From Roseobacter sp. MED193 (lineage in GTDB: Bacteria > Pseudomonadota > Alphaproteobacteria > Rhodobacterales > Rhodobacteraceae), in contig NZ_CH902583.1 of NCBI RefSeq assembly GCF_000152965.1, positions 3,601,694-3,665,693 on the forward strand: DNA of 64,000 nt. Direction: 5' to 3'. The position numbers and the translations under genes are program-made. Shown piece after piece: positions 2,876 through 7,883 of the stretch. Every line of letters starts with the position of its first letter. The stretch's first letter is position 1. The notes below the pieces were generated by a model. The model did no database searches and was not told where the DNA came from. It saw only the letters and a list, made by a program, of their open reading frames with translations.

Positions 2876-3766
2876 GTGCCGATGACGCTTTCTGAGACCG
2901 CAGCCATGACAGAGCCTGCAATTGCGATCATGCCCTATGGCGGCAAGCTAGGGAAAGCTCTGGCAGAACGCCCGCTCTGTGAAATGGAATGGCCGCTGGG
3001 CTGCCCTGATCGACTGCTTGGAAAACGCGTCAAAGATATGGCGTCAGAGGATCACCTGATCGTCTATGCCAAGCGGGCCATGCATATTCAGTCCCATCGG
3101 TGCTGCCCTGGGCGGATTTCAATGATTGTGGCCGAACCCAAGATCATGTCTGCAGATCATCACCGCATTCTCAGGCTTAGTGCCCGTCGCTTTTTCCGAA
3201 TCTTTAGCTATGACCCACAGCTCTTGTCGCGTATTCCCAACGGTTTGATGCTGCCCTACGGCACCTCGTGGGTGCCCGAGTGGCAAGAGCTGCACATAAA
3301 AAAGACTAAAGACTTGTCGCTCATTGCGTCGGCTAAGAATGACCATCCAGGCCATAAATTGCGCCATCAGATTGTTGCCTCTCTGCAGGCACGGATGCCC
3401 GGGGCGCAGATTTTGGGGCGCGGCTACCAGGCCTTTGAGCAAAAGTCAGAAGGGCTTGTCCCCTTCCGCTATTCCGTGGTGATCGAAAACGTGCGGGAGC
3501 CAAATTACTTCTCGGAGAAACTGATAGATGCAATCCTCTGCGAGACCGTACCTCTTTATTGGGGCTGTCCCAATATTGAGGATTTCTTTGCAGGGGAGGG
3601 GATAATCCTGTGTCGCGATCAGGGTGCGTTTGAGGCTGCGTTAAAACAGATAGGTCCAGAGGACTATGCGCGGCGGCTTCCGGCACTGCGGGGCTTGAAA
3701 CAGGCGGCGGCGGAACTGGCAGATTTGCCGTTACGCGCCGCGCTTGCGCTGCGCGATAGCCTTTAA
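2876..3766 (+). CDS. Glycosyltransferase family 10 (fucosyltransferase-like)
   Basis: A 296-residue protein whose C-terminal half (about 180-260) has the GT10 donor-binding pattern FRYSVVIENVREPNYFSEKL...ILCETVPLYWGCPNIEDFF. Alpha-1,3-fucosyltransferases and their bacterial relatives share it. The N-terminal half is poorly conserved, as is usual. No signal peptide or membrane span is visible, so it probably works in the cytoplasm on a nucleotide-sugar donor. The donor and acceptor are unknown. The start could be GTG 2876 or ATG 2882; neither has a strong ribosome site. It is an orphan: no glycan cluster flanks it, but it converges on the sulfate-activation fusion gene. Confidence 0.8.
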   Translation: MPMTLSETAAMTEPAIAIMPYGGKLGKALAERPLCEMEWPLGCPDRLLGKRVKDMASEDHLIVYAKRAMHIQSHRCCPGRISMIVAEPKIMSADHHRILRLSARRFFRIFSYDPQLLSRIPNGLMLPYGTSWVPEWQELHIKKTKDLSLIASAKNDHPGHKLRHQIVASLQARMPGAQILGRGYQAFEQKSEGLVPFRYSVVIENVREPNYFSEKLIDAILCETVPLYWGCPNIEDFFAGEGIILCRDQGAFEAALKQIGPEDYARRLPALRGLKQAAAELADLPLRAALALRDSL

Positions 3767-3802: not shown

Positions 3803-3835
3803 AAAAAGGCCCGCCCTTGGTTAAAGGGGCGGGCC
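3803..3835 (-). terminator. Rho-independent terminator of the sat-cysC fusion
   Basis: GGCCCGCCC (3808-3816) pairs perfectly with GGGCGGGCC (3827-3835). On the minus strand the hairpin is followed by TTTTTCTT, placing it as the terminator for the fusion gene ending at 3872. It may also stop GT10 transcription from the other side, although no T-run exists on the plus strand. Confidence 0.9.
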
Positions 3836-3871
3836 TAAAGTATTGGCAGGGGATTCACCCAAGGAGGTTGA

Positions 3872-5947
3872 TCAGCCTGCGATCAGACCCATGTTTTCGA
3901 GCTTGAGCAAAACCTGATGGGCGCAGTTGTCCACATCAACGTTTTCTGTCTCAACGCTCAGCTCAGGATCAACGGGGACATCATAGGGGTCAGAGATCCC
4001 GGTGAACTCTTTGATTTTGCCTTCGCGGGCCAGTTTGTACAGGCCTTTGCGGTCGCGGCGTTCGCATTCTTCCAGCGAGGTGGCGACATGCACTTCGACA
4101 AAGGCTCCAAAGGCTTCCACGTCTTCGCGTACGGCACGACGGGTGGTTGCATAGGGGGCAATGGGAGCACAGATGGCGATGCCGCCGTTCTTGGTGATCT
4201 CAGACGCTACATAGCCGATGCGGCGGATGTTGAGGTCACGGTGCTCTTTCGAAAAGCCCAGCTCGGAAGAGAGGTTTTTGCGCACAATATCGCCATCCAG
4301 CAGCGTCACAGGACGGCCGCCCATTTCCATCAGCTTGACCATCAGAGCATTCGCAATGGTGGATTTGCCAGAGCCGGACAGGCCGGTCAGGAAAACGGTG
4401 AAACCCTGCTTGGAGCGCGGAGGCTTGGTGCGGCGCAGCTCTTTCACCACCTCGGGGAAGGAGAACCACTCAGGGATCTCCAGGCCCTCGGCCAGGCGGC
4501 GGCGCAGCTCTGTGCCGGAAATATTGAGGATCGTGACGTCATCCTTGTCTTCGATCTCGTCGATGGCCTCATATTGTGCGCGCTCGGAGACCCAAACCAT
4601 GTGTTTGAAGTCGACCATTTCGATACCCATTTCCTCTTCATGGGTGCGGAACAGGTCCTGTGCATCATAGGGGCCGTAGAAGTCTTCACCAGCAGAGTTT
4701 TTGCCCGGACCTGCGTGGTCGCGGCCAACGATGAAATGGGTGCAGCCATGGTTTTTACGGATCAGACCATGCCAGACGGCCTCACGGGGGCCGGCCATCC
4801 GCATTGCCAGGTTCAACAGGCTCATGGAGGTGGTGGAGGCTGGGTATTTATCCAGTACTGCCTCGTAGCAGCGCACGCGGGTAAAATGATCCACGTCGCC
4901 AGGTTTGGTCATGCCGACAACGGGGTGGATCAGCAGGTTAGCCTGGGCTTCACGCGCGGCGCGGAAAGTCAGCTCCTGGTGGGCGCGGTGCAGAGGGTTG
5001 CGGGTCTGGAAGGCCACAACCTTGCGCCAGCCCAGTTTGCGGAAGTAGGCGCGCAGCTCGTTTGGGGTGTCGCGGCGGGCGCGGAAATCATAGTGCACAG
5101 GCTGCTGGATGCCGGTCACGGGGCCGCCCAGGTAGATCTTGCCTGCCTGGTTGTGCAGGTAGTTCACGGCAGGGTGCGCATCATCATCTGCGCCAAAGAC
5201 CATTTCGGCCTCGCGGGATTTGTTCGGGGTCCAGCGATCTGTCACGGTCATGGTGGCCAGGATCACGCCTTCCTGGTCACGCAGGGCAATGTCTTCGCCC
5301 ACTTCCAGTGTGGCGGCGAATTCTTCTGAGACGTCCAGGTTGATGGGCATCGGCCAGAGAGACCCATCAGCCAGGCGCATGTTTTCAACGACGCCGTTGT
5401 AATCTTCCTCGTTTAGGAAGCCTTTGAGCGGGTTGAAGCCACCGTTCATCAGCAGTTCAAGGTCGCAGATCTGGCGAGGTGTCAGATCGTGGCTTTTCAG
5501 CTCGCCTGCGTCGACTTTCAGCTTTTGTGCGGAGTCATAAGAGACATAAAGCTCGGGGATGGGCGCGAGATTATTCTGCATAGGGTGGGTCCTGTGTTTA
5601 ATGTGAGGCAAGCCGCTGGCTGTACCAGTGAGTTCCGCATAGAGCGCGTTGTATTCAGCGAGTTTGCGGGAAAGGAATTGATCTGCGAGGCGTCGTTTCT
5701 CGGCGCCACCACGTCTGGTCAATGTATAGGTGTAACGCTGTCGTTTGTCTGGGCCGGGGCGGTCGCTAATTGTGATCAGCCCGGCATCTGCTGCCGTGCG
5801 CAACTGTGTGTTGAGCCCGCCCAAGGACACACCCAGAGCAGCCGCTGTGGCGCGCTGTGATGCGTCCGGTGCCAGGTCAAGCTGGCGCAGGAGTCGGAAG
5901 CGCAGGTCTTCCTCATCTGGGTTGGGTTTGGTGTCGGGCGAGGTCAT
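3872..5947 (-). CDS. Fusion: MarR/EPS-type regulator + ATP sulfurylase + APS kinase
   Basis: One uninterrupted 691-residue frame. Residues about 12-110 are a winged-helix domain matching the MarR EPS-associated regulator family (SQRATAAALGVSLGGLNTQL, YTYTLTRRGGAEKRRL, FLSRKLAEYNALYAEL). From M123 it is bifunctional Sat-CysC: a PUA-like N-domain, ATP sulfurylase with QTRNPLHRAH (314-323) and GRDHAGPG (about 408), and APS kinase with P-loop GLSGSGKST (522-530). Together these make APS and then PAPS from sulfate and ATP. The linker is only about 14 residues. The internal ATG at 5581 (MQNNLAPIP) has AGGA eight bases upstream, so a separate 569-residue enzyme is also possible. The single-frame reading is seen; use as one polypeptide is inferred. 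Confidence 0.88.
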   Translation of the reverse strand: MTSPDTKPNPDEEDLRFRLLRQLDLAPDASQRATAAALGVSLGGLNTQLRTAADAGLITISDRPGPDKRQRYTYTLTRRGGAEKRRLADQFLSRKLAEYNALYAELTGTASGLPHIKHRTHPMQNNLAPIPELYVSYDSAQKLKVDAGELKSHDLTPRQICDLELLMNGGFNPLKGFLNEEDYNGVVENMRLADGSLWPMPINLDVSEEFAATLEVGEDIALRDQEGVILATMTVTDRWTPNKSREAEMVFGADDDAHPAVNYLHNQAGKIYLGGPVTGIQQPVHYDFRARRDTPNELRAYFRKLGWRKVVAFQTRNPLHRAHQELTFRAAREAQANLLIHPVVGMTKPGDVDHFTRVRCYEAVLDKYPASTTSMSLLNLAMRMAGPREAVWHGLIRKNHGCTHFIVGRDHAGPGKNSAGEDFYGPYDAQDLFRTHEEEMGIEMVDFKHMVWVSERAQYEAIDEIEDKDDVTILNISGTELRRRLAEGLEIPEWFSFPEVVKELRRTKPPRSKQGFTVFLTGLSGSGKSTIANALMVKLMEMGGRPVTLLDGDIVRKNLSSELGFSKEHRDLNIRRIGYVASEITKNGGIAICAPIAPYATTRRAVREDVEAFGAFVEVHVATSLEECERRDRKGLYKLAREGKIKEFTGISDPYDVPVDPELSVETENVDVDNCAHQVLLKLENMGLIAG

Positions 5948-5959
5948 GGCGATCTTGGT

Positions 5960-5981
5960 ATTATATGTTCACGCGTGAACA
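5960..5981 (-). promoter_or_regulatory. Consensus -10 abutted by a perfect 16-bp palindrome (candidate operator)
   Basis: On the minus strand TATAAT occupies 5965-5960. Immediately upstream, 5981-5966 is the perfect palindrome TGTTCACGCGTGAACA, so the palindrome fills most of the -35/-10 spacer. Transcription would start near 5953, only about six bases before the ATG at 5947, making a nearly leaderless message with no ribosome site. A dimeric winged-helix regulator such as the one encoded just downstream is the obvious candidate ligand. Binding is inferred. Confidence 0.6.
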
Positions 5982-6161
5982 CATGGCATAAAATGCTGCA
6001 GGTGCAAAGGGGGAAAATGTCGAATTCAGGAGCAGAAGGCTTGCGTAGCTAGATTACAACGCCATCTGGTCTGCATTGTAGCGCTCTGGGCTGACGCGGT
6101 TCCAGGTGCTCCTGGCTCCTGGGAATGTTGGACCAAAAGTTGCGAAAAATTCGGGACAGCT

Positions 6162-7883
6162 TTAGGTCACTTTGCCTGTGGCGGCAGGTGCAAAGACCGT
6201 TGCCTCAGGATCAGGCTGCGGCGTAAGGAGGTTTTCCAAGGTTGAGGCTTGGGCAACTGGCAGTGCGCTCACGGGGTGGTCGACGCCGCGCAGCGAAAAA
6301 TCCTGCAACCGCTCCTGTGGGGCAGCCATGCCTGCTGCAAGCACAACCTGGTTGGAGATCAGGAGTTCAACGCCGAGTTCCTTGGTCTTCGCCTCCAGCC
6401 GACTGGCTGCATTCACAGCAGAACCAATCAGGGTGCGCGGAGCATTATCGGTGGTGCCAATCTCTCCCAGAACAACGGTCCCAGTGTGCAGCCCCATACC
6501 GATCCGAACGGGGTCTTCGCCCTCGGAGGCCAGCATCATGTTAAAGCGGGCCAGTGCTACGCCGATATTGCCAGCAGCAGTGATCCCAGCCATGGCCGAA
6601 TGTTCGGGGCTGTCCATCTCAAATAGCGCCAGCAACCCATCACCCATGTATTTGTCGACAGTGCCACCTGCTTTGGTGATCTCCGGCACAATGGCGTCAA
6701 AAAACCGGTTCAGCAAAAAGACGATATCATAGGGGAGCAAGCCGGCTGATCGCGCGGTAAAGCCCCGAATGTCCAGAAACAGAACCGTAATGGTCTTTTC
6801 CACCCCCTGCGCCGAATGAACCTGACGGCGCCCCTTTGGCTGGTAAACGCGCTGGATGCTCAACGATGCGGTTGGCCTGACCTGGCAGGCCAGGCGTACG
6901 TTCTCACGGGCTTTGATCGCCTTTAGCGTTCGCGCTTCGGCGCTGCTGGGAGGGGCGAGGTTCTCCAAACCCTTGGTGACTTCGATCCGGCAGGTGGTGC
7001 AGCGCCCCTTGCCCCCGCACAGCGAAGTATGGGGGATTCCGTTGAGTTGAGAGATCTCCAGCAGGGTTAGCCCATGTTCGATGGTGATCTGGGTGCCATT
7101 CTCATAGCTTATCTGCAGAGATTTTTTCTTGCGGATAAAGCGACGCATGTAGAAGGCGGAGAGGGCAAGGCCAAGCAGGAGCACAAAAGTCCAAAAGGCA
7201 ATGTCGTAGATTTCAAACAAGCGTGCGAAGACGGTGTTGTCTGGCCAGTTAAAGCTATCGCGGATCACTGGTCCATTGCCGGGGCGGATGAAGATCGACC
7301 AGATACGACGGCCTTCTGTCAACAGCCCAGCCAGGGCGAGGGCAGGCACCAGGGTTGCCAGGCCAATCATATAGGGGAGTGCCTGGCGCCACCATGTGGT
7401 CAGCCGCAGCCACATATGCAGTCCAATGCAGCCGTGCACCCAGACGACTAGTAACAATAGGTACTGATGCCAGACTTCGGGCGAGTTCCACATCAGCAAT
7501 ATGATCGAAGTCATATCGTCGTCGAGGCCATATACGTTTGACGCATAGCTGGTGAAAACGAGATGCTGGATCAGCTGGAAAGGGATCAAAAGGCCCAAGA
7601 TCAGCTGCAAGGCTTGCGGCAGGCTCATACGGAGCGTGCGACGGCTGGCCACTTGCCAAAGGGCCAGGGCCATATGAACCAGCAGCGCGGCAAACAGTAG
7701 GAATTGGCCAGGCGGGTGACCCGTGAGCAAGCCGCGCAGTTGTTGCACCTGGAACATGACCTCAGGCGAGACGAGCCCCGCAGCGATGTTCATGAAGTGC
7801 AAGAAGGCATAACCCATCAGGAACACACCGCTCACGGTGCGGCTGCGTTCCACTAGATCTCCTCGCCAGAGTACATTTGCCAC
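6162..7883 (-). CDS. Membrane-anchored 2Fe-2S ferredoxin/class III adenylate cyclase (CyaC-like)
   Basis: A 573-residue protein predicted to make cAMP in response to membrane redox state. Residues 1-250 form about six membrane spans with several histidines (29, 70, 107, 139, 150, 156) that could bind heme, resembling SdhC-like anchors. Residues 255-345 are a ferredoxin domain with C289, C295, C298 and C333. Residues 360-545 are a class III cyclase: metal aspartates D371 (FLDIRGFT) and D415 (YMGDGLLALF), K411 and T484 at adenine-specifying positions, and transition-state N491/R495 in GSAVNAASRLE. The layout recalls the redox cyclase CyaC of Sinorhizobium meliloti, from memory. The gene stands alone, upstream of sat-cysC and downstream of trxB on the same strand. 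Confidence 0.88.
   Translation of the reverse strand: MANVLWRGDLVERSRTVSGVFLMGYAFLHFMNIAAGLVSPEVMFQVQQLRGLLTGHPPGQFLLFAALLVHMALALWQVASRRTLRMSLPQALQLILGLLIPFQLIQHLVFTSYASNVYGLDDDMTSIILLMWNSPEVWHQYLLLLVVWVHGCIGLHMWLRLTTWWRQALPYMIGLATLVPALALAGLLTEGRRIWSIFIRPGNGPVIRDSFNWPDNTVFARLFEIYDIAFWTFVLLLGLALSAFYMRRFIRKKKSLQISYENGTQITIEHGLTLLEISQLNGIPHTSLCGGKGRCTTCRIEVTKGLENLAPPSSAEARTLKAIKARENVRLACQVRPTASLSIQRVYQPKGRRQVHSAQGVEKTITVLFLDIRGFTARSAGLLPYDIVFLLNRFFDAIVPEITKAGGTVDKYMGDGLLALFEMDSPEHSAMAGITAAGNIGVALARFNMMLASEGEDPVRIGMGLHTGTVVLGEIGTTDNAPRTLIGSAVNAASRLEAKTKELGVELLISNQVVLAAGMAAPQERLQDFSLRGVDHPVSALPVAQASTLENLLTPQPDPEATVFAPAATGKVT

Follow-up and report, generated by a model that had tools for sequence, protein, structure and literature searches.

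A single gene of Roseobacter sp. MED193 is likely to encode an autoregulated "trigger enzyme" read from two in-frame starts, the long form joining a winged-helix regulator to ATP sulfurylase-APS kinase and the short form being the enzyme free of its regulator. The gene lies on the reverse strand of the window, the 64,000-nucleotide stretch of DNA analysed here; its features are collected in Table 1. If this reading is true, the gene represents a new trigger enzyme with a built-in route to a regulator-free form, one that would occur in 65 of 296 family genomes sampled, each from a different genus, with a further copy truncated at a contig end.

Table 1. Features of the fused gene and its flanks, in window coordinates
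Feature	Position	Strand	Evidence
Predicted long form: MarR_EPS-like winged helix + ATP sulfurylase + APS kinase, 691 aa	3872..5947	-	ORF call, domain profiles
Winged-helix DNA-binding domain, residues 12-108	5624..5914	-	TIGR04176, HTH_24, AlphaFold, dN/dS
Linker, residues 109-122	5582..5623	-	Gene alignment, dN/dS
Putative internal Shine-Dalgarno AGGA (codon 119 AGG + first base of codon 120)	5590..5593	-	Conservation
Predicted short form from internal ATG (codon 123): complete Sat-CysC, 569 aa	3872..5581	-	Start-codon conservation, PRK05537
PUA_2 domain of ATP sulfurylase, residues 130-281	5105..5560	-	Pfam
ATP-sulfurylase catalytic domain, residues 292-506	4430..5074	-	Pfam
APS kinase domain, residues 514-665	3953..4408	-	Pfam
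Proposed operator TGTTCACGCGTGAACA, dyad GTTCA-N4-TGAAC	5966..5981	.	Conserved dyad
Promoter-like pair ATGCCA-18-TATAAT, operator within spacer; weak evidence	5960..5989	-	Pattern scan
Terminator-like hairpin, 10-bp stem then T run	3807..3836	-	RNA fold

Domain organization of the fused gene

The open reading frame begins with ATG and is free of stops over its 691 codons. The first-pass annotation of this DNA had described a MarR-type domain read without a stop into Sat-CysC across a linker of about 14 residues, together with an internal ATG at 5581 preceded by a good AGGA site. The frame and its domain profiles bear this out, with the linker at residues 109-122 and the AGGA at 5593-5590, 8 nt ahead of codon 123. 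The region marked in that annotation ended at 5981, beyond the ORF start at 5947; the extra bases include a perfect 16-bp palindrome that went unmentioned.

The enzyme part is a full-length bifunctional Sat-CysC. The Pfam PUA_2, ATP-sulfurylase and APS_kinase domains all score above their own cut-offs, and the PRK05537 model of bifunctional Sat-CysC aligns nearly end to end with residues 121-690 (1043 bits against a cut-off of 669, profile positions 4-571 of 572). Profile position 4 falls on residue 121, two residues ahead of codon 123, and a product begun at that codon would be the whole normal enzyme. The solved relatives of this enzyme (e.g., 1i2d, 2gks and 3cr8) share the same part of the chain and differ at its N terminus: in none of the 36 PDB sequences among the matches listed does the best match start before residue 130 (it starts at 142 for 1i2d), so that no winged helix is seen there.

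The N-terminal domain is matched by Pfam HTH_24 at residues 14-59 (24.7 bits, cut-off 21.9) and by the NCBIfam MarR_EPS model TIGR04176 at residues 12-107 (E 9e-22, 77 bits; 81 bits in a second search). Both TIGR04176 scores lie below the curated equivalog cut-off of 88 bits, and by its profile matches the domain is taken as a relative of the MarR_EPS family without being filed as a member. One published paper (PMC10599003) reportedly names an EPS-associated MarR regulator. AlphaFold predicts residues 1-112 as a confident winged helix (mean pLDDT 89), with helices at 10-25, 31-38 and 42-54 followed by a beta wing and a 30-residue C-terminal helix at 78-107. In this model the domain has the three helices, beta wing and long C-terminal helix of a MarR-like winged helix. 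Foldseek searches with the domain model gave MarR proteins as the best E-values (4e-5, TM 0.4-0.6), and the top target-normalised TM-score among the 50 matches listed, 0.74, belonged to Sso10a-2 (4hw0), which we take to be a dimeric winged helix. A profile search of the PDB with the domain returned weak MarR matches (best E 0.005). The full-length AlphaFold model is poor (pLDDT 53), so nothing is drawn from it as to contact between domain and enzyme or mixed oligomers.

Downstream, the terminator-like hairpin (3836-3807) gave a z-score of -4.4 as an 86-nt fold, with 0 of 200 shuffles as stable; its loop measures 10 nt, and the pattern scan, which permits 8, therefore omitted it. The gene probably ends alone after this hairpin and seems to stand as a unit of its own. 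Upstream, the one promoter-like pair found compares with 0.8 expected in shuffles, and its TATAAT is absent from most relatives' sequences. The leader mRNA showed no significant fold (z -1.4).

Distribution and selection of the fusion

Relatives were taken from three sources: 60 whole genomes near the window, the 80 loci from named records that best matched the fused query, and one genome per genus across the family (296 genomes), to which further stretches were added. The 80 named-record loci are fused through their selection by the query and were left out of frequencies, which rest on the domain search of the 296 family genomes. Enzyme-only loci were the top-scoring rows of the near-genome and family searches, among the matches listed. 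The winged helix was found in 155 of the 219 loci that carry the enzyme, always in the enzyme's own stop-to-stop frame, which means that no stop separates the two in any of the 155. A search for a linker stop in homologues, the test proposed in the first-pass annotation, accordingly returned none among these domain-bearing loci, and the single chain posited there, with a DNA-binding domain ahead of a PAPS-making enzyme, is upheld by a frame kept in every one. One genome row (G244) was flagged for a TAG inside; its locus, L161, is nevertheless one open frame of 695 aa. Chance or mis-assembly as the source of the fusion is ruled out by an architecture common to 155 loci. In the remaining 64 loci, no ORF of at least 40 aa in the examined flanks matched the winged helix; a separate neighbouring regulator gene, sought in these enzyme-only loci as an alternative arrangement, was not found in those flanks, nor did one adjoin the enzyme in any of the 219 loci within the examined stretches. 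Removal of 10 genes whose last 2,000 bases were identical to another's left 145 distinct fused genes.

When the 296 family genomes were searched with the domain alone, 65 held the fusion and one more held a copy cut by a contig end. The strong rows of this search, also 65, comprise 64 with open frames of 690-1059 aa and G066, a 267-aa frame where, judging by position, the contig end cuts the gene; the divergent G301 (locus L171), with a fused frame of 713 aa, is counted in the family's 65. The next matches, among those listed, were stand-alone proteins, most of them 119-225 aa in length, with identities no higher than 52%. In a class-wide sample of 387 genomes, with the domain required at E 1e-12 or better, a frame of fusion length occurred in three, all from the family, and six other genomes had frames of 122-173 aa. 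The fusion is present in part of the marine roseobacter-type bacteria. One draft genome of the same genus (G001, locus L260) carries the enzyme with neither domain nor dyad, and its copy is broken into frames in that draft.

The linker measures 14 residues in 143 of the 145 distinct fused genes, L154 and L171 being the exceptions. With these two left out, dN/dS, computed from those 680 of the 10,153 gene pairs whose synonymous divergence is low, was 0.20 for the winged helix, 0.37 for the linker and 0.14 for the enzyme, values that indicate purifying selection on winged helix and linker. A domain that is in frame throughout and has a dN/dS of 0.20 argues that the long frame is maintained for its protein product. 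Resolution of the enzyme tree is weak, with 39 Fitch changes over 209 rows; a 70-row sample gave 19 changes, at least 8 of them forced by starred branches. One fusion followed by repeated loss, or by gene exchange, would fit the near-constant linker. The linker of L171 is longer and different, and its winged helix is at best 51% like the others; this locus may represent an old branch, or else a fusion that arose a second time independently.

A conserved internal start

Residue 119, an arginine, is encoded by AGG in 144 of the 145 distinct fused genes, compared with 57 of 7,649 other arginine codons counted across the whole stop-to-stop frames of the same genes; other well conserved arginine columns have at most five AGG each. 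The following base is A in 144, giving AGGA in this register in 144 of 145. Codon 123 is ATG in 139 genes, GTG in five and TTG in one, all of them start codons, and the residues between Arg119 and codon 123 vary. In the divergent L171, an AGGA in a different codon register lies 7 nt upstream of the ATG.

A four-base Shine-Dalgarno match precedes the internal start in 141 of 141 loci, a base made up of the 142 genes with the exact dyad described below less L082, for which no start was placed. Such a match is found before 120 of 2,252 other internal Met codons, 595 of 7,250 random codons and 5 of the 63 enzyme-only genes with a placed start (64 less L031). Before the long start it appears in 4 of 141 loci; the rule for placing that start also accepted 22 TTG codons, some surely wrong, and with only ATG and GTG counted the figure is 4 of 139. 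A weak three-base match precedes the long start in 91 of 141 (102 of 139 with ATG and GTG only), so this start may be better served than "no site" would imply. These counts indicate that the strong site is a feature of the internal start of the fused gene and under selection there.

By its sequence, then, the gene has a nested start, a conserved internal ribosome site with its start codon. Since the long and internal starts are conserved together, both products are expected, and the choice offered by the first-pass annotation, a fusion or an enzyme made alone with the long frame minor or historic, gives way to both at once: from this one gene the cell probably obtains a self-regulating enzyme as well as an ordinary one.

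A candidate operator ahead of the long start

The perfect 16-bp palindrome at 5966-5981, of the form GTTCA-N4-TGAAC, lies 18 nt ahead of the long ATG. The exact dyad is found upstream of the long start in 142 of the 145 distinct fused genes. In 88 of these 142 it sits 69-71 nt ahead of codon 18, the commonest spacing; its arms are invariant and its four central bases variable. The three others are L098, where the contig starts, and L099 and L129, each with one mismatch; over all fused loci the count is 151 of 155, the fourth case being L133, where the contig begins. None of the 64 enzyme-only loci has an exact dyad within 400 nt of the start, and none occurs anywhere in their 267,179 bases. 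In a 70-row tree of 35 fused and 35 enzyme-only genes, where 33 of the 35 fused rows carry the dyad (L129 and L133 lack it), the domain distinguishes the members of eight independent, well supported pairs; its presence is matched by the dyad in 7.6 of the 8 on average and contradicted in none (median p 0.008). Domain and promoter adjoin and a single deletion could remove both, so their joint loss supports binding of the one by the other and does not prove it.

The YGTTCANNNNTGAACR form occurs once in the genome of MED193, at the fused gene, and the reversed control also occurs once; the search thus points to the lack of a regulon and not to an excess of sites. A regulon was sought and none is claimed: the 10 further sites all have three mismatches, against six sites for the reversed control. 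In 10 of 11 same-genus relatives there is a site beside the fused gene and from zero to two others, the eleventh being G001. One site in its own genome, together with a terminator-like hairpin after the gene, suggests that the gene controls itself only. Its conservation and position mark the dyad as a candidate binding target within the control region of the gene itself. The promoter regions of L106, L169, L170 and L171 each contain two or more exact dyads (two in L171), and such repeats could allow cooperative binding.

The stand-alone relatives of the domain were represented by 25 MarR_EPS genes chosen from the stronger rows of the near-genome, family and class searches. Stand-alone relatives share a like domain (29-52% identity to that of the fused gene in the stronger rows of the family search, E <1e-9; 53% at best in the class sample) and differ in being mostly separate proteins of ~120-225 aa, among the matches listed; the 25 are unlinked to the enzyme within the examined stretches. 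Two stand-alone genes, L233 and L234, lie among polysaccharide genes by our reading of the neighbouring genes. A weak place in the MED193 genome itself (L238) gave no domain match. The exact dyad stands upstream of nine of the 25 (L237, L239-L242, L252, L255, L256 and L258), one of five in one set and eight of 20 in the other; two of those eight lie ~300 nt upstream of the domain. It is missing before the other 16. A one-mismatch dyad at a like distance, counted in the set of 20 only, was found in four, leaving 12 of the 25 with neither form. This pattern suggests that the dyad is the operator of a wider MarR_EPS regulator family.

Proposed regulation and alternatives

In the mechanism we favor, one promoter region containing the dyad would give one mRNA, on which the internal start is marked by an invariant AGGA and the long start by a weak ribosome site at most. 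Translation from the long start would yield the regulator-enzyme; translation from the internal one would yield the ordinary ATP sulfurylase-APS kinase, which is probably the main product. Two winged helices of the long form, held together by their long C-terminal helices, would bind the dyad just ahead of the start codon and repress transcription of the gene. Long and short chains could mix in the enzyme oligomer and the DNA-binding part hangs on the enzyme, which makes the enzyme's amount, or its state (with substrate, APS or PAPS bound), the likeliest signal to free the operator. The existence of both proteins, the pairing, dyad binding, repression and the sensed signal are what we infer from these data, and repression as the presumed sign of control is read from one thing, the dyad's nearness to the start. 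Control of the gene by its own enzyme, as suggested in the first-pass annotation, finds support in the kept frame, purifying selection and the promoter dyad. An extension of the mechanism is possible rather than probable: a one-gene feedback device of armed and more numerous arm-less chains, in which mixed oligomers would read APS or PAPS and gate the operator while the long-to-short ratio, set by the nested site, fixes the gain. We know of no sulfur regulator (CysB, Cbl, CymR and the like) that works in this manner.

Two rival readings each retain a single product. That only the short enzyme matters, with the long frame a minor or historic product, strikes us as highly unlikely: the sole strong ribosome site does belong to the internal start, and the fused domain is absent from most genera of the family sample, but the winged helix is under purifying selection at a dN/dS of 0.20, no stop falls between domain and enzyme in any of the 145 distinct genes, and 142 of them keep the dyad. 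It is likewise very improbable that only the long fusion is made, with the internal AGGA and ATG left over from an old enzyme start. The fusion presumably did join a regulator gene to an enzyme gene with a start of its own; a relic, however, would drift from AGG to the common CGN arginine codons, yet AGG stays in 144 of 145, and the rarity of the site before enzyme-only genes (5/63) assigns it to the fused gene; L171 has the site too, in another register.

MarR-type proteins can act as activators or repressors. The domain might activate, or might set a fixed level by negative feedback on protein amount without ligand sensing, since the present results require no ligand. We consider this unlikely, in that a regulator fused to the enzyme, rather than separate from it, suggests coupling to the enzyme's state; in the trigger enzyme PutA it is the substrate that chooses between repressor and enzyme (PMC8249747).

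Relation to known systems

Trigger enzymes are a known kind, represented by PutA, BirA and NadR (PMC8249747; PMC4016012). E. coli PutA binds only the putA-putP spacer, and substrate decides whether it serves as repressor or enzyme (PMC8249747). Like these proteins, the product of the fused gene would combine DNA binding with metabolic catalysis in a single chain, here by its domain matches a complete enzyme with a putative DNA-binding domain. The fused gene differs in that the enzyme is one of sulfate activation, the DNA-binding family is MarR_EPS-like, and a conserved internal start should yield the enzyme alone from the same gene. For this last feature the nearest likeness is AerR of Rhodobacter capsulatus, whose long and short forms come from nested in-frame starts and have opposite roles; mutation showed that the short isoform arises at an internal site equipped with a ribosome site of its own (PMC6199135). 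AerR is not an enzyme, being a cobalamin photoreceptor that acts through CrtJ, and a second transcription start was also mapped there (PMC6199135). The available portions of the PutA/BirA/NadR and AerR work contain nothing on a sulfate-activating enzyme (PMC8249747, PMC4016012, PMC6199135), and no published description of the fusion was found among the open papers listed. A proteogenomics study of R. pomeroyi has the search terms just once in its main text, in the reference list, for another enzyme (PMC3305630).

The model makes a compact set of predictions: two proteins, one operator, and one silent codon whose change should remove one of the proteins.

Sulfur metabolism and gene neighbourhood

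No second match to the fused protein was found in the MED193 genome. The only match to the PAPS_reduct family there is one CysH-like gene, so no CysD was seen, the model being one that presumably would detect it. A neighbouring ORF codes for a sulfite reductase-like protein, and the cysteine pairs of the CysH-like protein resemble what we take to be the APS reductase motif. Were it an APS reductase, cysteine synthesis would draw on APS and PAPS would be a side branch, which makes a sensor at the fused enzyme plausible. DMSP is a source of reduced sulfur for marine bacteria of this kind; to our knowledge, how they tune the use of sulfate against that of reduced sulfur is not settled. Here the sulfate-activating enzyme itself appears to be the regulator.

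The convergent neighbour of the fused gene (2876-3766, forward strand; 296 aa) had no Pfam or NCBIfam match at E 0.001, and by eye its product reads like a glycosyltransferase. Upstream of the fused gene, on the reverse strand (6162-7883), is a gene for a 573-aa protein with 2Fe-2S ferredoxin and adenylate/guanylate cyclase domains. A like cyclase gene is also located upstream of the L260 enzyme in G001, the same-genus genome without the winged helix.
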